Part shown: positions 5,020 through 62,351 of the stretch, in pieces
Layout of the letters: each line of letters begins with the position of its first letter
Numbering within the stretch: position 1 is the first letter of the stretch
Assembly (NCBI GenBank): GCA_947488305.1
Contig: CANKZM010000006.1
Location: forward strand, 186,001 to 250,000
Source of the DNA: an uncultured Roseobacter sp.
Lineage (GTDB): Bacteria > Pseudomonadota > Alphaproteobacteria > Rhodobacterales > Rhodobacteraceae
Direction: 5' to 3'
Length of the DNA: 64,000 nt
Translations under genes and position numbers: made by a program
Notes under the pieces: generated by a model
What the model was told of the DNA's origin: nothing
Database searches by the model: none
Seen by the model: the letters and a program-made list of their open reading frames with translations, nothing else

Positions 5020-6522
5020 TTACAGGTCCATCAACAGACGGCGTGGATCTTCAAGTGCTTCCTTAACGCGGACAAGGAATGTAACCGCTCCTTTGCCGTC
5101 CACGATACGGTGGTCGTAGCTCAGCGCGAGATACATCATCGGGCGGATCACCACCTGACCTTTGATTGCCATTGGCCTGTCCTGGATCTTGTGCATACCC
5201 AAGATGCCGGACTGCGGCGGATTGAGGATGGGCGACGACATGAGCGAGCCATAAACACCGCCGTTTGAGATGGTGAAGGTACCGCCCTGCATTTCCGCCA
5301 TCGAAAGCTTGCCATCGCGGGCGCGTGCGCCCTTTTCCGCGATCGCTTTCTCGATTGCGGCAAAGGACATTGCATCCGCATCACGAATGACCGGTACCAC
5401 GAGGCCCGTGGGGGTGCCCGCAGCAATTCCCATGTGCACGAAGTTCTTGTAAACGATGTCGGTGCCATCGATTTCAGCATTCACCTCGGGCACTTCTTTC
5501 AACGCGTGGACACAAGCCTTGGTGAAGAAGGACATGAAACCAAGTTTCACACCGTGCTTTTTCAGGAACAGGTCTTTGTATTCATTGCGCAAAGCCATCA
5601 CCTCGGTCATGTCGACCTCGTTGTAGGTGGTGAGCATTGCAGCCGTGTTCTGGCTGTCCTTGAGGCGTTTTGCGATTGTTTGGCGCAAACGGGTCATTTT
5701 GACCCGCTCCTCCCGGCTTGCGTCGTCCGCAGAAACAGGGGCCCGAGGCACAGCAGGTGCGGCGGCGGGCGCGGGGGCCGCGCTGGCCGCTGCGATGGCG
5801 CTGGCCACATCTTCCTTCATGATACGTCCGTCACGACCGGAACCTGTAACCTGATCGCGATTGATGCCCGCCTCAGCCATGGCTTTCTTGGCAGATGGGG
5901 CGTCCTCGACATCCTTGCCGGTCGCCGCAGCAGGTGCTGCCGCTGGTGCCGTGGCCGCCGCAGGCGCCGCAGCGGCACCCCCTGCGCCTGCCGACATGAC
6001 AGCGAGTTTGCCACCCGCCGCAACAGTGCTGCCTTCGGCTGCCAGAATTTCAGTCAGGGTTCCGGCGGCAGGGGCCGGCACTTCGACTGAAACCTTGTCG
6101 GTTTCAAGCTCACAAAGCATCTCGTCCTGTGCGACCGTATCGCCTACGGCCTTGAACCATGTACTGACAGTTGCCTCGGTCACGCTTTCGCCCAAGGTCG
6201 GGACCATGACATCCACGGATGCACCACCGGACGGGGCAGTGGGTGCGGGCGCCTCTTTGGCGGCGGGTGCGGCTTCGGCTCCTTCGCCCTCCAGGATGGT
6301 CGCCAGTAACGCATCGACGCCGACGGTTTCGCCCTCATTGGCAACAATCTCGCCCAGCTTTCCTGCGGCAGGTGAAGGGACCTCAACCGTTACCTTGTCG
6401 GTTTCCAGTTCACAGAGCATCTCATCCACCGCGACAGCCTCTCCGGGTTTCTTGAACCAGGTCGCAACCGTTGCCTCGGTCACGGACTCGCCCAGGGTGG
6501 GTACACGTACTTCGGTTGTCAT
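5020..6522 (-). CDS. sucB: Dihydrolipoyllysine succinyltransferase (2-oxoglutarate dehydrogenase E2) with two lipoyl domains
   Basis: 500 aa. Two lipoyl domains carry lipoylation lysines K43 and K143 in near-identical ELETDKV contexts exactly 100 residues apart. Ala/Pro-rich linkers follow, then a peripheral subunit-binding domain (about 210-245, with a [13 protein letters not shown] signature) and the C-terminal acyltransferase domain with catalytic motif DHRIVDG. It transfers succinyl groups to CoA in the E1-E2-E3 complex. Many E2o proteins have one lipoyl domain; two is a lineage variation. It starts 3 bp after the sucA stop. Confidence 0.97.
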
Positions 6523-6525
6523 TTC

Positions 6526-9483
6526 TTAGTTCCCTTCAATCGTCAGCGCTTCGTTCACGAGTGCTGCTTGCTGTGCTTTGTGTTGGCTTGCCAACCCGGT
6601 TGCAGGGCTGGCGGATGTGGCACGTCCGACATAGCGCGGGCGTGGGTGTTTCGATTTGATGCGCCCGAGAACCCATTCGATGTTCGGTTCGATGAACGTC
6701 CAGGCCCCCTGATTTTTGGGCTCTTCCTGGCACCAGACAACTTCCGCCTGTTTGAAGCGTTCAAGTTCCTTAACCGCCGACTGCGCAGGGAACGGATAGA
6801 ATTGCTCCACTCTCAACAGGTACACATCGTCGATGCCACGTGCGTCTCGCTCTTCCAGCAGGTCATAGTAAACCTTGCCGGAGCACATAACGACCCGTTT
6901 GATCTTGCTGTCCGCGACCAGTTTGGTGTCGGAGTTACCATGTTGTGCGTCGTCCCACATCAACCGGTGGAAGCTGGAACCGCTGGTAAACTCCGCCGCA
7001 GTACTGATCGCCATCTTGTGCCGCAACAGCGACTTTGGCGTCATCAGGATCAACGGTTTGCGGAAGGAACGGTGAATCTGGCGACGCAGGATGTGGAAGT
7101 AGTTCGCAGGCGTTGTACAGTTGGCCACGATCCAGTTGTCTTGACCACACATCTGCAAGAATCTTTCCAGTCGCGCAGAAGAGTGCTCTGGGCCCTGGCC
7201 TTCAAAGCCATGCGGCAGGAGGCAGACGAGGCCTGACATGCGCAGCCACTTGCTTTCGCCAGATGAGATGAACTGGTCGAACATGATTTGAGCGCCGTTG
7301 GCGAAATCGCCAAATTGGGCTTCCCAAAGCGTCAAGGCGTTCGGCTCTGCCATCGAGTACCCATACTCAAACCCGAGAACCGCATATTCCGAAAGCATGG
7401 AGTCAATGACTTCATACTGTGCTTGCCCTGATTTGATATTGTTGAGCGGATAGTACCGCTCTTCGGTGTTCTGGTTCACCAGACCGGAGTGCCGCTGTGA
7501 GAATGTCCCGCGCGTGGAATCCTGCCCTGCCAGTCGCACCGGAAACCCTTCGGTCAGCAGCGACCCGAACGCGAGCGCTTCGGCAGTGGCCCAGTCAAAC
7601 CCCTTGCCGCTGGCGAACATTTCCTTTTTCGCATCAAGAAGGCGACCCACTGTCTTGTGGATCGGGTACCCTTCCGGTGCGGTAAACAGCGCCTTGCCCA
7701 CTTCGGCCATTGTCTCTTTGGAGATGGCCGTCTTGCCGCGCTGGTACCTGTTCTTCTGCTTGTCGAGGTGGGACCATTTGCCATCCAGCCAGTCAGCCTT
7801 GTTGGGGCGGAATTCTTTGCCAGCCTCAAATTCCTCGTTCATGTAGGCTTGGAAGGCTGCCTTCATATCCTCGATCTCGCCTTCCGGGATCAACCCGTCC
7901 TTGACCAGACGTTCAGTATAAAGGCTCAGGGTCGTCTTATGGCCCTTGATCTTCTTGTACATGATCGGGTTGGTGAACATGGGCTCGTCGCCCTCGTTGT
8001 GGCCAAACCGGCGGTAGCAGAAGATGTCGATCACCACATCCTTGTGGAACTTCTGACGGAATTCCGTTGCGACCTTGGCCGCGTGCACAACCGCTTCCGG
8101 GTCATCGCCGTTTACGTGGAAGATGGGAGATTCGACCACCAAAGCGTTATCGGTGGGATAGGGGGAGGAGCGACTGAAGTGCGGGGCCGTGGTGAAACCG
8201 ATCTGGTTGTTCACCACGAGGTGCATCGTGCCGCCGGTCCTGTGACCGCGCAGGCCCGAAAGGGCAAAACACTCTGCCACTACACCCTGTCCGGCAAATG
8301 CTGCGTCACCGTGGAGCAGGATTGGCATGCAACTCGTACGGTCCGGGTCGTTGTTCTGGTCTTGCTTGGCGCGGCACTTGCCAAGCACAACCGGGTTTAC
8401 GGCTTCGAGGTGGCTGGGATTGGCTGTCAGACTGAGGTGGACGGTGTTTCCGTCGAATTCCCGATCCGAGGACGCACCCAAGTGATATTTCACATCCCCC
8501 GAACCATCCACATCTTCTGGCTTGAAACTGCCGCCCTGAAATTCGTTGAAGATCGCGCGATAGGGCTTGGCCATCACATTCGCGAGCACCGAGAGGCGCC
8601 CCCGGTGAGGCATGCCGATCACGATGTCTCTGACACCAAGCGCGCCACCGCGTTTGATGATCTGCTCCATCGCGGGCACGAGGCTTTCGCCGCCATCGAG
8701 ACCAAAACGCTTGGTGCCCATGTATTTGACGTGCAGGAATTTCTCGAACCCTTCCGCCTCAACCAGTTTGGCGAGAATGGCTTTGCGCCCTTCGCGGGTG
8801 AAGGAGACTTCCTTGCCAAACCCTTCAATCCGTTCCTTTAGCCAGCCCGCCTGCTCGGGGTCGGAGATGTGCATGTATTGCAGCGCAAAGGTGCCGCAAT
8901 ACGTCCGCTTCACGATCGACAGGATTTCCCGCATCGACGCAACATCGAGACCCAGCACCTTGTCGATAAAGATCGGCCGGTCCATGTCGGCTTCAGTGAA
9001 CCCGTAGGACTTCGGATCAAGCTCCGGATGTGGATCGGTGCTACGCATCCCAAGCGGGTCGAGGTCCGCAACAAGATGCCCCCGGATACGGTATGCCCGG
9101 ATGATCATCAGCGCGCGGATACTGTCGAGCACCGCGCGCTTGATCTGTTCGTCGGAGACAGCGACGCCTTGTTCGGCGGCCTTGGCCTTTATCTTGTTGC
9201 CAGCGCTTTTCACTTCCGGTTCGGGTGCCCATTCCCCGGTGAGCGCTGCGGTCCAATCGTCATCCGGTTGCGGTGGCCAGTCCGTGCGTGCCCAGGAGGG
9301 ACCAGTGGCCTCGCGCTTGACCGACACCTCGTCGTCGCCCATGGCCTTGAAGAATGCCTGCCAGGCCTCATCCACCGCTGCCGGATCATTGGCGTATCTG
9401 GCGTACATCTGTTCGAGGTATTCCGCATTGTGCCCCTGCATGAAGCTGGAGGCGTGGAATTGGTCATTTCTTTGTTCGGTCAT
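6526..9483 (-). CDS. sucA: 2-oxoglutarate dehydrogenase E1 component
   Basis: 985 aa, typical for SucA. The thiamine diphosphate-binding region includes GDAAFAGQGVVAECFALS and a downstream NNQIGFTT. The N-terminus (FMQGHNAEYLEQMYARYAND) is the E2-binding region usual for E1o, and the C-terminal transketolase-like domain has HGFEGQGPEHSSARLERFLQ. It decarboxylates 2-oxoglutarate and succinylates lipoyl-E2. The start codon overlaps the DUF805 stop as ATGA, so translation is coupled to that membrane protein. Confidence 0.97.
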   Translation of the reverse strand: MTEQRNDQFHASSFMQGHNAEYLEQMYARYANDPAAVDEAWQAFFKAMGDDEVSVKREATGPSWARTDWPPQPDDDWTAALTGEWAPEPEVKSAGNKIKAKAAEQGVAVSDEQIKRAVLDSIRALMIIRAYRIRGHLVADLDPLGMRSTDPHPELDPKSYGFTEADMDRPIFIDKVLGLDVASMREILSIVKRTYCGTFALQYMHISDPEQAGWLKERIEGFGKEVSFTREGRKAILAKLVEAEGFEKFLHVKYMGTKRFGLDGGESLVPAMEQIIKRGGALGVRDIVIGMPHRGRLSVLANVMAKPYRAIFNEFQGGSFKPEDVDGSGDVKYHLGASSDREFDGNTVHLSLTANPSHLEAVNPVVLGKCRAKQDQNNDPDRTSCMPILLHGDAAFAGQGVVAECFALSGLRGHRTGGTMHLVVNNQIGFTTAPHFSRSSPYPTDNALVVESPIFHVNGDDPEAVVHAAKVATEFRQKFHKDVVIDIFCYRRFGHNEGDEPMFTNPIMYKKIKGHKTTLSLYTERLVKDGLIPEGEIEDMKAAFQAYMNEEFEAGKEFRPNKADWLDGKWSHLDKQKNRYQRGKTAISKETMAEVGKALFTAPEGYPIHKTVGRLLDAKKEMFASGKGFDWATAEALAFGSLLTEGFPVRLAGQDSTRGTFSQRHSGLVNQNTEERYYPLNNIKSGQAQYEVIDSMLSEYAVLGFEYGYSMAEPNALTLWEAQFGDFANGAQIMFDQFISSGESKWLRMSGLVCLLPHGFEGQGPEHSSARLERFLQMCGQDNWIVANCTTPANYFHILRRQIHRSFRKPLILMTPKSLLRHKMAISTAAEFTSGSSFHRLMWDDAQHGNSDTKLVADSKIKRVVMCSGKVYYDLLEERDARGIDDVYLLRVEQFYPFPAQSAVKELERFKQAEVVWCQEEPKNQGAWTFIEPNIEWVLGRIKSKHPRPRYVGRATSASPATGLASQHKAQQAALVNEALTIEGN

Positions 9484-9983
9484 GAAAGCACCTCATAAGG
9501 ATTGGGACCGTATTGGTTCTGGCCGGGTTGGCTGGGGCGAGTGAGCCACCAGAGGACGAAAAGGGGAGAGAGCGCAATGATGATACCTGCAATGACCATG
9601 ATCGCGCCCACGATCCCGTCTGGCATGATAAACTCACCACTGGCACCCAGTTCATCGGGCCCAAAAAGGCCGATGAAAGTGATAAATCCAATGATCGCGA
9701 TCAAAGGGTAAAAGAGATACAGGCCCGAGCGGCCCGTGTCGTGCATGCGGCGAAAGCCGACGGCGATACTGGGGATGAAGGTCGCGATGTTGAAGGCCCC
9801 AGAAAGCAGCGTCGGTCCGTCTTGGGCGCCTGTAATGCCGTTGATGAAGCTTTCGGTGAACCCGGCAACGAAACCGCCAAGAAGACAGAACAGAAAGAAC
9901 CACCAGTATTCCGACCGCGAGGCACGACCGGAGAAGGTAAAATACTTGCGCAAACAGGTGATGATGGATTGGCGGAAGGTCAT
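9480..9983 (-). CDS. DUF805 family membrane protein
   Basis: 167 aa. The N-terminus (CLRKYFTFSGRASRSEYWWF) is the DUF805 signature, followed by four or five hydrophobic helices and the conserved RRMHDTGRSGLY motif in the central loop. DUF805 proteins are inner-membrane proteins of unknown role. It sits between sucD (118-bp gap) and sucA (4-nt overlap). The gap contains a strong GC-rich dyad (about 9985-10015) that may act at RNA level. Confidence 0.88.
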   Translation of the reverse strand: MTFRQSIITCLRKYFTFSGRASRSEYWWFFLFCLLGGFVAGFTESFINGITGAQDGPTLLSGAFNIATFIPSIAVGFRRMHDTGRSGLYLFYPLIAIIGFITFIGLFGPDELGASGEFIMPDGIVGAIMVIAGIIIALSPLFVLWWLTRPSQPGQNQYGPNPYEVLS

Positions 9984-10101: not shown

Positions 10102-10989
10102 TCAGCCCTTCGAAATTGCCTCTTGCACGGCTTCACCGAGCGTTGCGGGGCTGTCCGCCACGACGATACCGGCGGCGCGCATAGCTTCGATCTTGTCCTC
10201 GGCACCACCTTTGCCACCGGCAACAATTGCGCCCGCGTGGCCCATGCGGCGGCCCGGAGGGGCGGTGCGGCCAGCGATAAACCCGGCGGTGGGCTTCCAG
10301 CGGCCTGCCTTCTTTTCGTCGGCCAGGAATTGCGCCGCGTCTTCCTCAGCTGAGCCGCCGATTTCGCCGATCATGATGATGCTCTCGGTTTCGGGGTCGG
10401 CAAGGAACATCTCCAGCACGTCGATATGCTCGGTGCCCTTGATCGGGTCGCCCCCGATGCCTACCGCCGTGGACTGCCCGTAGCCCAGATCAGTCGTCTG
10501 TTTCACTGCCTCGTAGGTCAGCGTGCCCGAACGCGAGACGACACCGCAGGAACCACGCTTGTGGATATGTCCCGGCATGATGCCGATCTTGCAGGCATCC
10601 GGCGTGATGACACCTGGGCAGTTTGGCCCGATCAACCGGCTCGAAGATCCTTCAAGCGACCGCTGCACTTTCATCATGTCGAGCACCGGGATGCCTTCGG
10701 TGATGCAGACGATCAGTTCCATTTCGGCGTCGATGGCCTCCAGGATCGAATCCGCGGCAAAGGGGGGTGGAACGTAGATCACGGACGCGTTCGCTTCGGT
10801 TTTGGCCTTGGCCTCATGCACGGAGTTAAAGACCGGCAAGTCGAGGTGCGTCTGTCCGCCCTTGCCGGGCGTCACGCCACCGACCATCTTGGTGCCGTAA
10901 GCGATCGCCTGTTCGGTGTGGAACGTGCCCTGCGAGCCGGTCAGGCCCTGGCAGATCACCTTGGTGTTTTCGTCAATAAGTACGGCCAT
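10102..10989 (-). CDS. sucD: Succinyl-CoA synthetase alpha subunit (ADP-forming)
   Basis: 295 aa. A CoA-binding Rossmann domain occupies the N-terminal half ([20 protein letters not shown]). The ligase domain contains the phosphorylated histidine H251 in [14 protein letters not shown], and GPNCPG at about 121-126. It pairs with SucC to make ATP or GTP from succinyl-CoA. Unusually it is separated from sucC by two secreted-protein genes. A strong purine-rich Shine-Dalgarno (GAAGAAGGAAG) precedes the ATG. Confidence 0.97.
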
Positions 10990-11010: not shown

Positions 11011-11994
11011 TTACCCGACCACGCTCACGGTGATCCGGCTTGTTCCATTTTCGATACAGGTTGCCCGACCTTGGGAATGTGCGTCCTCGAAGGTCAGGAA
11101 TACGGGCGGGTCAATGCGGCCCTCGGCATAGTAGCCGCCGCACCCATAGTGGTTGTCCGGGGTGTAGACGTATATGCCCGGCGCAACCGAGTTCAGCGCG
11201 GCACCGGCGATTTGAACGGTGACGGCGGGGCCAACGTAATTTGTCTCGACAGTGCAGACGCCGGATCCGACTTCCACCGAGACGGCGTTATCCGGCGTGA
11301 AATAGACCTTGTCCGTGTCCGAGCCGCCGGTCTCGAAGCCGAACTCGAACCCATGGGCTTCAAGCGCTGTGGCGACAGTGTCGCGGCTGAAGAACTGGCG
11401 CAGGCAGACATCTACCGCCTTCGACAGTGCGGTTCGGACCTGCGGCAGCGAGACGCTGGCGTCGCCCTGCGAAAGTTTGCGCGTAGTCAGCCCCTGTGGC
11501 ACTCCCGAAAAGGCAAAGCCCACGACGTCACCCTGCGCCGTCGGATAGGCGATCAGATCCGCCTGGTAGGGTGCGCCGGTGACCGTGTAGCGTCGGCTCA
11601 TGCCCTGCGGAACCGGCGCGGGCACAAGCCCGGTGAGAAAGCTCAACTCCACGAATTTGTCTGCTGTCAGGGCGCCGAGGCCGCGCCTGATGCTGGGACC
11701 AAAGGCCATACAATGCGCAGCACCGCTGGCGTCTGGCAGCTTGATCTCGATGGTGCGGTCGGTGCCGTTCCTGGCCATCCGAAACACGCCCGGCGCGATC
11801 TCGGTCAGGGCGCCCCAGTTGCGGGTCCGAATCTGCTCAAGCGATGCGTCCAGTTGCGCCAGACGCGTGGCGTCCCGGAAGCCTTGCGCGCTCAGAAGAC
11901 AAACGCGCAGATCGTTGGCCGCGCTGATTTCCACGGGCGTTTGCGCCGCGAGAGGTGCGGCGAGAAGAAGGGATATGACGAGCGTGCGGATCAT
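11011..11994 (-). CDS. Secreted hypothetical protein within the suc operon
   Basis: 327 aa with a signal peptide (MIRTLVISLLLAAPLAAQ, likely cut near residue 17). The mature protein has about six cysteines and a two-part, beta-rich character; I recognise no named domain. The start overlaps the stop of the upstream secreted-protein gene as ATGA. It lies between sucC and sucD, so it is probably exported to the periplasm during TCA-cycle expression. Function unknown. Confidence 0.75.
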   Translation of the reverse strand: MIRTLVISLLLAAPLAAQTPVEISAANDLRVCLLSAQGFRDATRLAQLDASLEQIRTRNWGALTEIAPGVFRMARNGTDRTIEIKLPDASGAAHCMAFGPSIRRGLGALTADKFVELSFLTGLVPAPVPQGMSRRYTVTGAPYQADLIAYPTAQGDVVGFAFSGVPQGLTTRKLSQGDASVSLPQVRTALSKAVDVCLRQFFSRDTVATALEAHGFEFGFETGGSDTDKVYFTPDNAVSVEVGSGVCTVETNYVGPAVTVQIAGAALNSVAPGIYVYTPDNHYGCGGYYAEGRIDPPVFLTFEDAHSQGRATCIENGTSRITVSVVG

Positions 11995-12611: not shown

Positions 12612-13805
12612 TCAGCCCTTGACGGCTTTCACGATCTTCTGAGCGCCGTCTTTCAGATCATCCGCGGCGATGACATCAACATCGGAGTTGTTGATGATGT
12701 CCTTACCCTGCTGCACGTTAGTGCCCTCAAGGCGCACGACAAGAGGCACTTGCAAACCGACTTCTTTCACTGCAGCGACCACGCCTTCCGCGATGACATC
12801 ACAGCGCATGATCCCACCGAAGATGTTGACGAGGATGCCTTTGACATTCGGATCCGAGGTGATGATCTTAAACGCCTCGGTTACTTTCTCCTTGGTTGCA
12901 CCACCGCCCACGTCGAGGAAGTTCGCAGGTTCCGCCCCATAGAGCTTGATGATGTCCATCGTCGCCATCGCAAGCCCCGCGCCGTTCACCATACAGCCGA
13001 TCTCACCATCCAGCGCGATGTAGTTCAGGTCGTATTTTGACGCTTCAAGTTCCTTGGGGTCTTCTTCGGTCACATCGCGCAGTTCGGAAACATCCGCATG
13101 CCGATAAATCGCATTCCCGTCGAAGGCCACTTTGGCATCCAGTACTTTGAGATCACCGCTGTCGGTCACGATCAACGGATTGATCTCCAGCATTTCCATG
13201 TCTTTTTCCACAAAGGCTTTGTAAAGCAGCCCCATCAGACCGACGCATTGTTTGACCTGCTTGCCTTCCAGACCCAGCGCGAATGCGACGCGCCGACCAT
13301 GAAAGGCCTGGTACCCGGTCGCTGGGTCAACAGAAAAGCTCAGAATCTTTTCCGGTGTTGCTGCGGCAACCTCTTCGATGTCCATGCCGCCTTCGGTTGA
13401 GCACACAAAACTGATGCGGCTGGTCTGACGATCAACAAGCAGTGCCAGGTACATTTCGGTTTCGATGCCAGAGCCGTCTTCGATGTAGATACGGTTGACT
13501 TGCTTTCCGGCAGGGCCGGTCTGGTGCGTGACAAGAGTGCGTCCCAGCATCTTCTTGGCTTCCTCAGACGCCTCTTCCACCGATTTCGTCAGCCGGACCC
13601 CGCCCTTTTCGCCAGCGTCTGCCTCCTTGAAGCTGCCCTTGCCACGGCCGCCCGCGTGAATCTGAGCTTTGACAACCCACATTGGCCCATCGAGCGCCCC
13701 GGCGGCTGTTTTGGCGTCTTCTGCCTTGAGCACAACGCGTCCGTCTGAAACAGGTGCGCCGTAGCTGCGCAAAAGTGCCTTGGCTTGATATTCGTGGATG
13801 TTCAT
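12612..13805 (-). CDS. sucC: Succinyl-CoA synthetase beta subunit
   Basis: 397 aa, the usual SucC length, starting [19 protein letters not shown]; a 25-codon in-frame extension upstream is rejected because this N-terminus is canonical. It has an N-terminal ATP-grasp domain ([12 protein letters not shown]) and a C-terminal CoA-ligase domain ([29 protein letters not shown]). It is the first gene of the operon running to lpdA, with a paired palindromic operator 105-143 bp upstream. Confidence 0.97.
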
Positions 13806-13909
13806 GAGGTGTGTCCCGACTAGCTTCGTTTGACCACTTATAGGCACGTCAAAAACCAGTCTGAAAAGACCTTTTCGCAAAATTCACCGATTAGCGCTCG
13901 AAAATCTAA

Positions 13910-13948
13910 TTTTTGTGATCACACGGTCAAAAAGTGTGATCACAAAAA
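13910..13948. promoter_or_regulatory. Paired TGTGATCACA operator upstream of sucC
   Basis: TGTGATCACA occurs at 13914-13923 and again at 13935-13944, 21 bp apart (about two helical turns). Together they form a perfect 15-bp inverted repeat (arms TTTTTGTGATCACAC and its complement, 9-nt spacer). The same double site with the same 21-bp spacing lies upstream of sdhC. Spacing and symmetry suggest two dimers binding one face of the DNA. The regulator is unidentified; GT-GATC-AC half-site geometry would suit a GntR/FadR-type protein, but this is inference. Confidence 0.75.
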
Positions 13949-19455: not shown

Positions 19456-19869
19456 ATGCTGAACGCAGCCATCGCTTGCAATTGTCTTGCAGCCATTCTC
19501 TTTTTTCTAGCTGCCATGAAGTATGGGCGCGGGCCGGTACCTGTCACATATCACCGGCTCATACTGGACAAAGAGGGAGAAGACCTTTCCCCGCACATGA
19601 CGTTGATCTTGAAGGCGATGTATCGCGCGTTTTCCGGTGCGGCGCTTGCCATCGGGTTGCTGATCGTTGCGTTGAGCCTTGGGCCGGTGCGGGCGGGTGA
19701 GTTCTGGGCTGAAGTGGCATTGCTGCTGGCCGGAGCAGCCTTTGTTTCAGGCTCCAGTTTCACGCCTTACAATATCGAGCAGGCAACCGAAGTGCAAACG
19801 CCTTGGCGCCTGTCGCTGTTGATGGGGGGATTACTGGGCGCGGGTTTTCTGCTGGCGCAACTTGCCTAG
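19456..19869 (+). CDS. Hypothetical four-helix membrane protein
   Basis: 137 aa. Hydrophobic helices lie at about 5-20, 55-75, 85-105 and 117-135. A short charged loop (YHRLILDKEGEDLSPH) follows helix 1, and FVSGSSFTPYNIEQATEVQTP is the most distinctive stretch. No family is recognised. It ends 8 bp before the ATG chosen for the following DUF1194 gene, with which it is likely co-transcribed. Confidence 0.65.
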   Translation: MLNAAIACNCLAAILFFLAAMKYGRGPVPVTYHRLILDKEGEDLSPHMTLILKAMYRAFSGAALAIGLLIVALSLGPVRAGEFWAEVALLLAGAAFVSGSSFTPYNIEQATEVQTPWRLSLLMGGLLGAGFLLAQLA

Positions 19870-19876
19870 GAAACGG

Positions 19877-20596
19877 ATGTCGAAATTGTCAGATGCAAGT
19901 TGGTCTGGCTTCGCTAAGCTAGGCAATATGATCTGGCGCGGAGTTTTGACGGCGATATGGCTCGTGGCGGGTGCGGGGATGGTACGGGCCTGCGAGCTGG
20001 CCCTTGTTCTCGCCGTCGATGTTTCCGGATCGGTGGACGGGCGCGAATACCGCATTCAGATGGATGGTTTGGCGGCGGCACTTCGGGACGGGATAGTCGT
20101 GGAAGCGCTCATCAGCCAACAGGCACAGGTGACGCTGATACAGTGGACAGGTTCAAGTAGACAGCAGCAGACCATTCCCTGGACAAAAATGGAAACGGGG
20201 CAGGATCTTGAGCGTTTCGCGTCGCAAATCGAAACCGACGAGCGCGTCTGGCGAAGTTTTTCCACGGCTATCGGTGAAGCATTGATTGCATCTGAAATGG
20301 CGCTCGCACAGGTGCCGACCTGTAGGCGGAAAGTCATCGATGTTTCGGGTGACGGCATTTCGAACGAAGGGATAGAGCCACGGACCCGGCATGCGGCCCT
20401 GGACGAGCTGGGGGTAACCGTCAACGCGCTTGCCATCGAAACCGGTGACGAGGATTTGACCGGCTGGTTCTTTGAAAACCTGATCCGTGGCGAAGGTGCC
20501 TTTGTGGTCACAGCCAATGGGTTTGAAGATTATCCCGAACAGATAAAGCGAAAGCTGCAACGGGAAACGACTAGACAGGTCAGTGGCTTGAGATAA
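19877..20596 (+). CDS. DUF1194 (von Willebrand factor A-like) secreted protein
   Basis: 239 aa from the ATG after TAGGAAACGG; an ATG at 19928 (MIWRGVLTAIW) would give a tidier signal peptide and is an alternative. After the signal peptide, LALVLAVDVSGSVDGREYRIQMDGL is a MIDAS-like DxSxS motif, and KVIDVSGDGISNEGIEPR is the conserved second half of DUF1194. It is probably a periplasmic metal-ion-dependent adhesion-type domain of unknown partner. Its stop lies immediately before the sdhC operator. Confidence 0.85.
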   Translation: MSKLSDASWSGFAKLGNMIWRGVLTAIWLVAGAGMVRACELALVLAVDVSGSVDGREYRIQMDGLAAALRDGIVVEALISQQAQVTLIQWTGSSRQQQTIPWTKMETGQDLERFASQIETDERVWRSFSTAIGEALIASEMALAQVPTCRRKVIDVSGDGISNEGIEPRTRHAALDELGVTVNALAIETGDEDLTGWFFENLIRGEGAFVVTANGFEDYPEQIKRKLQRETTRQVSGLR

Positions 20597-20627
20597 TGTG
20601 ATCACGGTTTCCCGAGGTGTGATCACA
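20597..20627. promoter_or_regulatory. Paired TGTGATCAC(A) operator upstream of sdhC
   Basis: TGTGATCACG at 20597-20606 (one mismatch) and a perfect TGTGATCACA at 20618-20627, again 21 bp apart. The copy upstream of sucC has identical spacing. It sits 124-154 bp upstream of the sdhC start, directly after the DUF1194 stop. Shared geometry upstream of two TCA operons supports co-regulation by one factor. Confidence 0.75.
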
Positions 20628-20750
20628 AATTCGAATTAATTGGATTTTTTGGCCAAATCGCGCCAATTTAACGCGGTTTTCCTACCATGCTTTGCGTGAC
20701 AAGAATTATTATAAGAGTAAAAAGGTGTCAGGGAACAAAAGGAATCTATT

Positions 20751-21134
20751 ATGGCCGATGTAAATCGGGGCAACCGACCCTTATCGCCGCATTTGACGAT
20801 ATATCGCCCTCAGCTCACCTCTGTGACGTCAATCCTGACACGTATTACCGGAAATGCATTGCTGATTTCTGCGTTGCTGGTGGTCTGGTGGTTTCTGGCA
20901 GCTGCAACGTCGCCGGAGTATTTCGCGGTAGCAAATGGGGTGTTGACCAGCTGGTTCGGTGATCTTGTCTTGACCCTTTCTCTTTTGGGGCTTTGGTATC
21001 ACACGCTGGCAGGCTTGCGGCATTTGATCTGGGATCAGGGCATCGGCCTCGATCTCGAGACAGCATACAAACTCGGTTACGCTGTGATTGGCGGATCGGT
21101 CCTGCTGACCCTATTGACTCTTGTCCTGATCTGA
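20751..21134 (+). CDS. sdhC: Succinate dehydrogenase cytochrome b556 subunit
   Basis: 127 aa with three TM helices. RPLSPHLTIYRPQLTSVTSI is the SdhC signature, and YHTLAGLRHLIWDQG in helix 2 carries the haem b ligand histidine. It anchors the SdhAB catalytic dimer to the inner membrane and contributes to quinone binding. First gene of sdhCDA-x-y-sdhB; AAAGGA precedes the ATG. Confidence 0.95.
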   Translation: MADVNRGNRPLSPHLTIYRPQLTSVTSILTRITGNALLISALLVVWWFLAAATSPEYFAVANGVLTSWFGDLVLTLSLLGLWYHTLAGLRHLIWDQGIGLDLETAYKLGYAVIGGSVLLTLLTLVLI

Positions 21135-21574: not shown

Positions 21575-23380
21575 ATGGCTTCATACGAATACGAAACGCA
21601 CGAATACGACGTAGTGGTCGTGGGTGCTGGGGGCGCGGGTTTGCGAGCCACACTTGGCATGGCAGAGCAGGGCCTGCGCACAGCCTGTATTAGCAAGGTT
21701 TTCCCAACCCGGTCGCATACCGTGGCGGCACAGGGCGGGATTGCCGCTTCGTTGTCGAATATGGGGCCGGATAACTGGCAGTGGCACATGTATGACACTG
21801 TTAAGGGGTCGGACTGGCTGGGCGATACCGACGCAATGGAATACCTCGCCCGCGAAGCGCCCAAGGCGGTGTACGAGTTGGAGCATTACGGTGTACCGTT
21901 TTCCCGTACCGAAGAGGGAAAAATCTATCAACGTCCCTTTGGCGGCCATACCACGGAATTCGGTGAAGGCCCTGCAGTTCAGCGGACCTGTGCTGCGGCG
22001 GACCGCACGGGCCACGCGATCCTGCACACGCTTTATGGGCAGTCGCTGAAGAACAACGCGGAATTCTACATCGAGTATTTTGCCATCGACCTCATCATGT
22101 CCGATGATGGCGTGTGTCAGGGCGTGTTGTGTTGGAAGCTTGATGACGGAACGCTTCACCTTTTCGCATCAAAGATGGTCGTTCTTGCAACAGGTGGATA
22201 TGGCCGCGCCTACTTCTCCGCCACCTCTGCGCATACCTGCACTGGCGACGGCGGCGGGATGACCGCGCGCGCAGGATTGCCATTGCAGGATATGGAATTC
22301 GTACAGTTCCACCCGACCGGCATTTACGGTGCAGGCTGCCTCATCACCGAAGGGGCGCGGGGTGAGGGGGGCTATTTGACCAACTCCGAAGGCGAGCGGT
22401 TTATGGAGCGGTACGCTCCGCAGTATAAGGACCTGGCGCCGCGCGACTATGTGAGCCGCTGTATGACCATGGAAATCCGTGAAGGACGTGGCGTCGGCGC
22501 AAATGGCGATCATATCCACCTGAACCTCAACCACCTGCCGCCGGAAACGCTCAAGCTGCGTCTGCCCGGAATTTCAGAAAGCGCCCGAGTATTCGCGGGT
22601 GTGAACCTGAACAAGGAACCGATCCCGGTTCTGCCGACAGTGCACTACAATATGGGCGGCATCCCGACGAACTACTGGGGCGAAGTGCTCGCGCCCACGT
22701 CAGACGATCCCGACCGCGTCTCCCCCGGCTTGATGGCCGTGGGTGAAGCAGGTTGTGCTTCGGTACATGGGGCAAACCGACTTGGCTCAAATTCGCTCAT
22801 CGACCTTGTTGTCTTTGGCAGGGCTGCTGCCATTCGCGCAGGCAAGATCGTCGATCCCGAGAGCGCGGTTCCAACGCCTAACCTCGCTTCGGTCGAAGCG
22901 GCGTTGGATCGTTTCGACAACACCCGCTTCGCCAAGGGGGCCATGCCAACGGCTGAGTTGCGTCTTGAGATGCAGCAGACCATGCAGAAAGATGCGGCCG
23001 TGTTCAGGGCTAATGACACATTGGCCGAAGGCAAGAAGGCGATGGAAGAAGTCGCAGGAAAATGGGCCGATGTCGGCGTCACTGACCGAAGCCTCGTGTG
23101 GAATTCCGACCTGATGGAGACGCTGGAGCTTGCCAACCTCATCCCGAATGCTGTGGCAACAATCATCGGGGCCGAAGCCCGCAAGGAAAGCCGAGGCGCG
23201 CATGCCCACGAGGACTTCCCCGAACGGGATGACGAGAACTGGCGTAAGCACTCTCTGATCTGGTTCAAAGGCAATAAGGCGACGCTGGGCTATCGGGGTG
23301 TGCACGAGCAACCACTGACAAGCCATAACGATGGCGGTATCGATCCCAAGAAAATTGCGCCGAAGAAAAGGACGTTTTGA
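21575..23380 (+). CDS. sdhA: Succinate dehydrogenase flavoprotein subunit
   Basis: 601 aa. It has an FAD-binding [15 protein letters not shown] near the N-terminus, the covalent FAD histidine H48 in [15 protein letters not shown], and a catalytic core with [23 protein letters not shown] and [17 protein letters not shown]. It oxidises succinate to fumarate. The stop overlaps the ATG of a small secreted-protein gene (TGATG), an unusual break between sdhA and sdhB. Confidence 0.97.
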
Positions 23381-24097: not shown

Positions 24098-24877
24098 ATG
24101 GTTCAACTGACGCTTCCGAAGAATTCACGCATGACCACGGGCACCACGTGGCCCAAACCGGAAGGCGCCACCAATCTGCGCAAGTTCCAGATCTACCGCT
24201 GGAATCCGGATGACGGGAAAAACCCTCGGGTCGACACTTATTTCGTGGATATGGACACCTGTGGTCCGATGATCCTCGACGCGCTCATCAAGATCAAGAA
24301 TGAGATCGACCCGACACTGACCTTCCGTCGCTCCTGTCGTGAGGGCATTTGTGGGTCTTGCGCGATGAATATTGACGGCATCAACACGCTGGCGTGCATC
24401 TATGGGATGGACGAGGTCAAAGGCGACGTGAAGATCTACCCACTACCGCATATGCCGGTCGTGAAAGATTTGATCCCTGATCTGACCCATTTCTATGCGC
24501 AGCATGCTTCCATCATGCCCTGGCTCGAAACCAAGACCAACCGCCCGGCGAAAGAATGGAAGCAATCCATAGAGGACCGGAAAAAGCTCGACGGGCTGTA
24601 TGAATGTGTCATGTGTGCATCCTGCTCCACGTCCTGCCCGAGCTATTGGTGGAATGGTGATCGCTACCTCGGGCCAGCGGCGTTGCTGCATGCCTACCGC
24701 TGGATCATTGACAGCAGGGATGAAGCGACGGGTGAGCGCCTCGATGAACTTGAGGATCCATTCAAACTGTATCGCTGCCACACGATCATGAATTGCGCCA
24801 AGACCTGTCCCAAGGGGCTGAACCCCGCAGAAGCCATTGCAAACATCAAGAAAATGATGGTGGAGCGTCGCGTCTAA
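24098..24877 (+). CDS. sdhB: Succinate dehydrogenase iron-sulfur subunit
   Basis: 259 aa. The [2Fe-2S] site is formed by [16 protein letters not shown] plus NTLAC. The [4Fe-4S] and [3Fe-4S] sites are formed by [17 protein letters not shown] and [17 protein letters not shown]. It conducts electrons from SdhA flavin to the membrane quinone. Full length, last core gene of the operon. Confidence 0.97.
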
Positions 24878-59611: not shown

Positions 59612-61134
59612 GCGCGGGTCCACCTGTAAAGCCACACCTCCGTCAACGGCTCCCCGGCCAACCTCAGTTGCGCGCGAAACTCCACCAAGTCGGCGTCGCC
59701 CGGTTTGAATGTGAAGGCAAGCCGAGGCCCTCCGGTTTCAGGATTACGCTGAACCAACCCATCGGACACCTCACCGTTGCTGCTACGCAAAACGATATCC
59801 AGCAGGCTCAGATCGTCTGGCACGTCGTTGCGCGCTTCGAAGTCAATCGCGACAATCGTGCCACCCCATGGGTTATCTCCGACCGCGGTATCCAGCACGC
59901 GTAACGGCATATCTGTGCGCGGCGCGGGATCATCCGCCCAATCGAGTTGGTACGTCATCTTGTGGCTGGCACCAGCGGCAATTGGAGTGCTCGGTCGCCA
60001 ATACGCGACGATATTGTCGTAGATTTCCAAATCAGCCGGGATTTCCACGAGGGTCACGGAACCCGGGCCCCATCCCTCACCGGGGGTCACCCAAAGTGCG
60101 GGGCGATTGTGATAAAGGGCTTCAAGATCCGCAAAGTCGCTAAAGGCCCGCGCGCGCTGCATGAGCCCGAACCCCCGAGGGTTCATGTCGGAAAATGCAC
60201 TGATCTGCAACGTTTTGGGATTTGCCAACGGACGCCAGATGACCTCTCCTGCGCCGTTGTGGATCATCAAACCGTCGCTGTCATGCACCGCCGGGCGGAA
60301 ATCCGAAAACCGGTCCCGCATTGTTTCGTCGAACAGAAACATCGAGGTCAATGGCGCGATCCCAACATGCCGCATCTCTGTGCGCGCAAAGAGTTCGGCC
60401 TCGATCCGCATGGTCAACGTTTCGCCATGCGCGATGTCGAACCGATAGGCGCCAGTGCAACTTGGGCTGTCGAGGAGCGCATGCAGCACGACGCCGTTTG
60501 CCTCTGGAGCCGGTGTTTCCAGCCAAAATGCGACGAAGTCCGGAAATTCCTCACCCTCCGGATCAGCAGTCTTGAGGGCCAGCCCGCGTGCAGACAACCC
60601 ATAGGTTTCGCCAGTACCTATCCCGCGAAAATAGCTCGCACCCTGGAACACTGCGTATTCCTGAAAGATGCCGGGCTGCTCGAGCTCAGCGCGCAAGCGC
60701 AATCCAGAATACCCCAGGGTGTCATCAATCTCGACGTCGGGAAACTTGTCTGTGGTGTCGAATACCCCCATGTCGAACCGCAGTGGTTTCGAAACGCCGT
60801 TTTCGACCACATTAATTTCGACGGCCTGAGGAAAGTACAAACCGGGTGGAAAAACGTCGACACGCTGCGGTGCCTCTGTGCCTTCCCAAAGAGCGTTGCG
60901 ACTGTCGAACCAGATTTTCCGATATTGATCGTAGGTCAGGTTGCGCCAGCTTTCCGGAATTATCGGGCGCGGCGTGTAGGCCGCCTCAGCCATGGCTTTG
61001 GCTCTGACGCGAATGTCCGCGGGATCAAAACCGATTGCGTCGCCGAAGGACATGCCCGGTTCCGCACTCATTCCGGCGGTCGGCACAGCTGCGAGGGCCA
61101 AAAGGCTTTTGAGAACATCACGACGTAGCATCAT
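59608..61134 (-). CDS. opgG: Periplasmic glucan biosynthesis protein OpgG
   Basis: 508 aa from the ATG overlapping the opgC stop (ATGA). The leader LRRDVLKSLLALAAVPTAG resembles a twin-arginine signal (RR-x-x-L-K), as known for OpgD/OpgG relatives. Core motifs are YDQYRKIWFDSRNALW, FRGIGTGETYGLSARGLALK and TSMFLFDETMRDRFSDFRP. It acts on nascent glucan chains in the periplasm. Confidence 0.93.
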   Translation of the reverse strand: MMLRRDVLKSLLALAAVPTAGMSAEPGMSFGDAIGFDPADIRVRAKAMAEAAYTPRPIIPESWRNLTYDQYRKIWFDSRNALWEGTEAPQRVDVFPPGLYFPQAVEINVVENGVSKPLRFDMGVFDTTDKFPDVEIDDTLGYSGLRLRAELEQPGIFQEYAVFQGASYFRGIGTGETYGLSARGLALKTADPEGEEFPDFVAFWLETPAPEANGVVLHALLDSPSCTGAYRFDIAHGETLTMRIEAELFARTEMRHVGIAPLTSMFLFDETMRDRFSDFRPAVHDSDGLMIHNGAGEVIWRPLANPKTLQISAFSDMNPRGFGLMQRARAFSDFADLEALYHNRPALWVTPGEGWGPGSVTLVEIPADLEIYDNIVAYWRPSTPIAAGASHKMTYQLDWADDPAPRTDMPLRVLDTAVGDNPWGGTIVAIDFEARNDVPDDLSLLDIVLRSSNGEVSDGLVQRNPETGGPRLAFTFKPGDADLVEFRAQLRLAGEPLTEVWLYRWTRA

Positions 61135-62351
61135 GCGCCCTTTTTCTTTCGCCATGGCTGGGATTTGAACCAGCCAACACCGTAGGCGACACCAATGAGC
61201 ACTGCAAAACCAACCGCATTGACCAGGAGCTGATTAAACAAGGAATTGCGCCCCAATGTATCTAGGGCAACACCAAGAAGCCGAGCCGTGAACATCGAAG
61301 TTATGAACACCGCCAGTGATTGTTGTCCCACCTTCATGATGATCGCCAAAGCCCGGCGCCAGAACTCGGCCAGTGCGCCACCTGCCTGTGGTGGCAAAAT
61401 GCGTCTTCCGGCCTCTCCGACGGCGACCCAGCAGAGGTAGGCAAGCGCGAGGAAATGCACATAGCGCAGTATGCCAAAATCCGTTTTGGCGATCAGAAAC
61501 CTGTATTCCTTGCGCCAGGCCTGTACCTCCGGCAACTGGCGGGTAATCCGGTAATAGGCTAGCGGGATGATCACTAGTACAATGACAGCAGCCAATATGA
61601 TCAGGATCTTGTTGCGCGGCGGAGCCGGCAGCCAGCCTGACATAAAGGCAAACCCCGTGAAGAAAACCAATTGCCAGCCAAACGGGTTAAAGAACCACTC
61701 GCGCGCAGACCAGGGCTCGGCAGGCAGGGCAAAATAGTCCAGCTGCGCGCCGAACCAGACACCCGCGACAACCCCAAGCGCCAGAAGAGGGTGCGCTTTG
61801 TAGGACGCAATGACCACAGGCATCATGGCAAGGACCACAAGATACATGGGCAGGATGTCAAAGTAATTTGGTACGTAAGTCAGGGTCAAAAGCCCTAACA
61901 GGTTCTCTTCGGGACGTTTGAAGAACGGGTAGAGGTTCAATTGGCCGACATAGTCGCGTTCGAACAATTCCGTAGAATTCAAGAAAACCATCGTCCCGGC
62001 GATGGCAAAAAAGAGCGCGATATGTGCCCAGTATACCTGCCAGCACCTGAAGGCCACACGGGCGGCCCCCATCAAGAGACCCTGATCCCGAAACACGGCG
62101 CCAAATGCAATGGCCGATGCCATGCCAGAGCAGAATACGAACACCTCTGTCGCATCGGAAAAACCAAAGCGCGCGGGAATCCAAAGCGTCAACCAGTTGC
62201 CTGGTGTATGTGCAATCAGAATGATGAACATGACGATACCGCGGAAGAAATCCAACCGCGGATCACGAATGCGCGCGGCGGAGTTTGCAGCCGCCTGAGC
62301 GGCGGATGGTGCACGTGGTTGGCTCATCTGTGACGGGTCGGCAAGTGTCAT
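61131..62351 (-). CDS. opgC: OpgC-type membrane protein for glucan succinylation
   Basis: 406 aa. RDPRLDFFRGIVMFIILIAH is the OpgC family start, followed by about ten TM helices and YVGQLNLYPFFKRPEENLLG. OpgC proteins substitute osmoregulated periplasmic glucans, with succinate where tested in Rhodobacter. It is the first gene of opgC-opgG-opgH; 4-nt overlaps couple all three. Confidence 0.92.
   Translation of the reverse strand: MTLADPSQMSQPRAPSAAQAAANSAARIRDPRLDFFRGIVMFIILIAHTPGNWLTLWIPARFGFSDATEVFVFCSGMASAIAFGAVFRDQGLLMGAARVAFRCWQVYWAHIALFFAIAGTMVFLNSTELFERDYVGQLNLYPFFKRPEENLLGLLTLTYVPNYFDILPMYLVVLAMMPVVIASYKAHPLLALGVVAGVWFGAQLDYFALPAEPWSAREWFFNPFGWQLVFFTGFAFMSGWLPAPPRNKILIILAAVIVLVIIPLAYYRITRQLPEVQAWRKEYRFLIAKTDFGILRYVHFLALAYLCWVAVGEAGRRILPPQAGGALAEFWRRALAIIMKVGQQSLAVFITSMFTARLLGVALDTLGRNSLFNQLLVNAVGFAVLIGVAYGVGWFKSQPWRKKKGA

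Follow-up and report, generated by a model that had tools for sequence, protein, structure and literature searches.

Tandem palindromes ahead of the suc and sdh operons of a Roseobacter as probable binding sites for an orthologue of the activator AkgR

Introduction

Within the 64,000-nucleotide stretch of an uncultured Roseobacter sp. genome analysed here (hereafter 'the window'), two groups of genes for TCA-cycle enzymes, suc and sdh, are each preceded by a closely spaced pair of palindromes; raising the question of which protein reads these elements, and whether it serves to couple the two groups. A first-pass annotation had proposed one regulator for both operons, acting through a motif that was not recognised as a well-known site. 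The latter point needs revision: in the accessible part of one publication, GTGATCAC is already named as a motif of AkgR, an activator of Rhodobacter sphaeroides (PMC6365646), and the accessible text of another predicts that a GntR regulator, RSP_0981, controls sucCD (RSP_0967-6), sdh (RSP_0974-6) and the genes for 2-oxoglutarate dehydrogenase (RSP_0965-62) (PMC4344238). The RSP numbering given there places RSP_0981 itself near both sdh and suc. We take AkgR to be RSP_0981, for which direct activation of TCA genes was reportedly described by Imam et al. in 2015.

Our preferred reading, to which we assign a probability of about 0.85, is that the pairs represent tandem sites for the AkgR orthologue of this organism (P0001), which would activate suc and sdh together whilst limiting its own synthesis through a site at akgR.

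Results

Two tandem pairs in the window

Both pairs have the positions and letters reported in the first-pass annotation (13914/13935 for sucC; 20597/20618 for sdhC), and its exact 21-bp repeat is confirmed at each (Table 1). The GTGATCAC core lies 109 bp from the start codon of sucC and 124 bp from that of sdhC, with the distal sdhC palindrome directly abutting the end of an ORF for a DUF1194 / von Willebrand A-like protein (19862-20596). From gene order and strand we infer that the suc and sdh groups are operons; the former also includes two ORFs (11011-11994 and 9480-9983) without an NCBIfam match.

Table 1. Coordinates of the palindrome pairs, downstream genes, modelled promoters and candidate regulator (window positions unless indicated).
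Feature	Position	Strand	Description
Tandem pair upstream of sucC	13914..13944	.	TGTGATCACA at 13914-13923 and 13935-13944; proposed AkgR sites
Tandem pair upstream of sdhC	20597..20627	.	TGTGATCACG at 20597-20606, TGTGATCACA at 20618-20627; proposed AkgR sites
sucC	12612..13805	-	succinate-CoA ligase beta subunit, first of suc group (NCBIfam)
sucD	10102..10989	-	succinate-CoA ligase alpha subunit (NCBIfam)
sucA	6526..9483	-	2-oxoglutarate dehydrogenase E1 (NCBIfam)
sucB	5020..6522	-	dihydrolipoyllysine succinyltransferase (NCBIfam)
sdhC	20751..21134	+	succinate dehydrogenase cytochrome b556 subunit, first of sdh group (NCBIfam)
sdhA	21575..23380	+	succinate dehydrogenase flavoprotein subunit (NCBIfam)
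sdhB	24098..24877	+	succinate dehydrogenase iron-sulfur subunit (NCBIfam)
Modelled sdhC promoter	20696..20723	+	GTGACA-N16-TAAAAA; posterior 0.94
Weakly modelled sucC promoter	13837..13867	-	TTTTCA-N19-TATAAG; posterior only 0.39
P0001, GntR-FCD regulator	G000:C2:327161-327808 (outside window)		216 aa; GntR and FCD domains

Across the whole genome (4,795,751 bases in 31 contigs), the pattern TGTGATCAC-N10-14-TGTGATCAC matches the sucC and sdhC pairs only. When up to three mismatches are allowed, tandem sites are found at 51 places per strand (3 for the control), the exact ones being the two already known; the next-best (L179-L182; one with a single mismatch, three with two) are located inside reading frames. 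TGTGATCACA occurs at seven places in the genome, three of which belong to the sucC and sdhC pairs and four of which lie outside the window. Single copies at C2:650400 and C8:149265 fall within long ORFs, and one at C8:105657 falls outside every ORF of at least 120 aa; none of these three has an evident target.

In 200 simulated 64-kb sequences (first-order Markov), no GTGATCAC pair appeared at a spacing of 19-23 bp. The window holds 33 single sites with up to two mismatches, which is no over-representation relative to shuffled sequence (mean 26.7, sd 5.0); exact GTGATCAC sites number nine, with a simulated mean of 1.2, and exact-core single sites are therefore commoner than the Markov model expects. 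The first-pass annotation had stated that, elsewhere, TGATCA occurs only singly and in coding regions. 'Singly' does not stand, since copies are found 18 bp apart (3/21) and 30 bp apart (61568/61598), the latter within a listed ORF (61131-62351, minus strand). The copies 18 bp apart are two instances of TGTGATCAT (3-28), apparently in a frame that by eye resembles an ABC ATPase.

The half-sites of CRP/FNR proteins are held 6 bp apart, as TGTGA-N6-TCACA or TTGA-N6-TCAA. We reject a site of this type for the window, as TGTGA and TCACA abut with zero spacer in both pairs.

Conservation of the pairs across the family and class

We looked for GTGATCAC-N11-15-GTGATCAC in 149 genomes of the Rhodobacteraceae, one per genus, and see the double pattern in 133 of them (two places in 106, one in 25 and three in 2), the genomes being related such that these counts are not independent events; a reversed control pattern gave no match in any of the 149. 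Within a sample of the class, the pair is present in five of 190 genomes, three of which belong to the same family, leaving 2/187 outside; here, one genome that lacks the pair (G222) has five matches to the reversed control. If the spacing is left free (17-25 bp), 40 pairs are found in 20/20 named relatives—picked from 80 loci, themselves the best 80 of 568 P0001 relatives—with 33 at 21 bp and seven at 20 bp.

To identify targets, we examined the window and 40 further regions from 36 of 40 listed genomes, the regions being chosen for possession of an exact pair rather than for their genes. All 70 pairs inspected, 66 with a step of 21 bp and four with one of 20 bp, precede TCA genes: sucC (36), sdhC (32), sucA (1) and fumC (1). 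The sucA case (G136, L168:4729-8882) has its pair between mdh and sucA, indicating that the element stays with the suc group even where sucC is not the first gene; the fumC case is a third pair in its genome (G042, L176:2794-4338), bringing fumarase into the predicted regulon of that organism. Between the palindromes, sequence conservation is low, as judged from the 64 pairs that precede sucC or sdhC at a spacing of 21 bp. The scan of related genomes proposed in the first-pass annotation thus finds the pair kept in 133/149 genomes, and 70/70 inspected pairs before TCA genes, not at random places.

Sixteen family genomes are without an exact pair, and 14 of these have a SucC-like match. The sequence ahead of sucC was inspected in 11 of the 16 (leaving out L194 and L198, in which the start was not readable, and G021, with a 50% SucC match); save in G040, no pair was apparent there at one mismatch per palindrome. 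The two out-of-family pairs (G162 and G295) are not located before suc or sdh genes, that of G162 having a 22-bp step and lying beside a TonB-receptor-like ORF (L209:1501-1530).

The candidate regulator

The gene for P0001 carries one palindrome, its core positioned 17 bp before the ATG. This arrangement is shared by its relatives: GTGATCAC is found upstream in 29/30 P0001 orthologue loci, within ~65 bp of the start and mostly at ~17 bp, and at 10-38 bp before the start in 79/80 named loci (the best 80 of 568 relatives), the two sets overlapping. Amongst the 19 FCD matches in the genome (P0001 and 18 others), the P0001 gene was the only one found adjoining an exact TGTGATCACA in the neighbourhoods of the four out-of-window sites.

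Close orthologues, defined as P0001 relatives at E <= 1e-80 (63% identity or more), are present in 131 of the 149 family genomes. The pair accompanies them in 129 of these 131, against 4 of the 18 genomes without one. The exceptions are G019, G033 (with a 47% relative), G096 and G114, which have a pair but no close orthologue; and G040 (a sucC pair with one mismatch) and G147 (73% complete, no sucC match), which have the orthologue but no exact pair. In 17/40 genomes an akgR-like gene is found within 20 kb of a pair, among the matches listed. A 1.73 Mb replicon of Paracoccus denitrificans encodes a protein related to P0001 at 75%, whose gene is preceded by one palindrome; the same replicon has no pair, and suc/sdh genes were not found within the 40 kb read.

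The single-regulator proposal is strongly supported by these data, because the pair is conserved before the same operons and co-occurs with one GntR-FCD regulator, whose own gene is likewise preceded by this palindrome. Very probably, then, the regulator of the pairs is P0001, and the motif, targets and gene neighbourhood together point to its being orthologous to RSP_0981/AkgR.

Modelled promoters lie downstream of the pairs

A bipartite promoter model was fitted to the DNA between pair and start codon in 32 sdhC and 36 sucC regions. For sdhC (GTGACA-N16-TA), the centre of the proximal palindrome falls 96-99 bp before the estimated transcription start in 24/32 regions, the window having 108 bp; for sucC, with a TTTGCA-like -35 element, the equivalent distance is 86-90 bp in 23/36 regions, the window having 89 bp at low posterior. 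The pair thus seems to be placed upstream of the modelled promoters, its distance from them varying rather little, which is the position expected of an activator acting from afar. The phase between pair and modelled promoter is 3.7 bp for sucC and 3.0 bp for sdhC, modulo 10.5 (21 and 27 regions, posterior at least 0.7); a likeness in helical phase that is suggestive only, as most regions are related and share one distance, and, of the four sdhC regions that fall off the main cluster, two do not fit.

Discussion

In our model, one AkgR dimer would occupy each GTGATCAC palindrome, with the 20/21-bp step placing two dimers on the same helix face, two turns apart and able to touch; cooperativity between the paired sites is thus predicted from their spacing. 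From their position ahead of a weak promoter, the dimers would then make contact with RNA polymerase, such that suc and sdh are switched on together when AkgR is active, whilst the lone palindrome at akgR, 17 bp from the start codon, would allow AkgR to limit its own synthesis. Binding and activation by P0001 in this genome are predictions, as are the mode of polymerase contact and the negative autoregulation; the FCD domain prompts the guess that the effector is a small carboxylate.

The same protein on the same sites might instead repress both operons, with a TCA intermediate lifting the repression. Repressors are common among GntR-FCD proteins, and the single site before akgR is compatible with autorepression. 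We nevertheless consider this reading very improbable, given that AkgR is termed an activator in the accessible part of PMC6365646 and that the pair sits upstream of the modelled promoters, its proximal centre 96-99 bp before the estimated start in 24/32 sdhC regions and 86-90 bp before it in 23/36 sucC regions. We also hold it very improbable that another protein, a paralogous GntR-FCD regulator for example, binds the pairs, with AkgR merely having the same motif. The other FCD proteins of the genome would furnish candidates, and in another family of the class a remote GntR-FCD relative, 29% identical to P0001, carries this tandem ahead of its gene, implying that the motif is common to the subfamily; against this, the neighbourhoods of the four TGTGATCACA sites outside the window included no FCD gene but that of P0001, and both co-occurrence and gene neighbourhood favour it.

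That the pairs are chance palindromes, or purely structural, has a near-zero likelihood in our estimation: the lack of excess among mismatched single sites in the window would fit such an origin, but the simulations yielded no pairs, the element is kept throughout most of the family, and its step is strict and the intervening bases are little conserved. We reject a chance origin on the grounds of simulation and conservation.

The AkgR regulon of R. sphaeroides, as far as the accessible text describes it, resembles the arrangement seen here in having GTGATCAC at target promoters, a GntR-family regulator (P0001 co-occurring with the sites in family genomes) and sucCD, 2-oxoglutarate dehydrogenase and sdh as (there predicted) targets; the host genus differs. 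With both the motif and the predicted targets of RSP_0981 in print, the finding is of a kind already known, a described activator having its regulon preserved throughout the family. The strict tandem geometry is not found in the accessible text. Neither the 20/21-bp tandem, nor the site at akgR itself, nor the promoter distance appears in the published AkgR passages available, although the main AkgR paper may contain them, and the words 'tandem' and 'palindrome' are absent from the accessible part of PMC4344238. A search on AkgR/RSP_0981 and GntR control of TCA enzymes in Rhodobacteraceae found no further account of the regulon, and literature naming TGTGATCACA held nothing on bacterial TCA regulation, as judged by titles and the openings of abstracts.

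Two other systems bear comparison, again from partial texts. PS417_07240, a GntR-like protein of Pseudomonas simiae 32% identical to AkgR, likewise has GTGATCAC before its own gene, but is the proposed regulator of a deoxyribonate cluster, with no tandem mentioned in the passage seen (PMC6365646). CceR (RSP_1663, LacI family) shares with RSP_0981 a predicted action on sdh, and also on mdh, in R. sphaeroides; its motif, GTT-N6-8-AAC, is unlike the window palindrome (PMC4344238), and the CceR regulon includes TCA enzymes in R. sphaeroides but not in Paracoccus denitrificans (PMC11323563).

Our preferred reading would give two TCA operons a likely regulator across the majority of Rhodobacteraceae genera, with a geometry—20/21 bp, at a fairly fixed distance from the promoter—that is easy to test; AkgR would thus be a convenient case for transcription activation by GntR-FCD proteins. 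More tentatively, and with the odds somewhat against it, AkgR may need to form a rigid unit of two dimers (20/21 bp, one helix face, family-wide) in order to act on metabolic operons, whereas its own gene has a single palindrome; one motif read in two ways. If so, pairs would give cooperative activation and the single site simple feedback, and the tandem of the distant relative in G295 would mark 21-bp stacking as an ancient trait of the GntR subfamily concerned. The G295 genome belongs to another family of the class; its GntR-FCD gene follows two GTGATCAC copies 21 bp apart (L210:940-1903), and a third TGATCAC lies ~20 bp upstream of that tandem.
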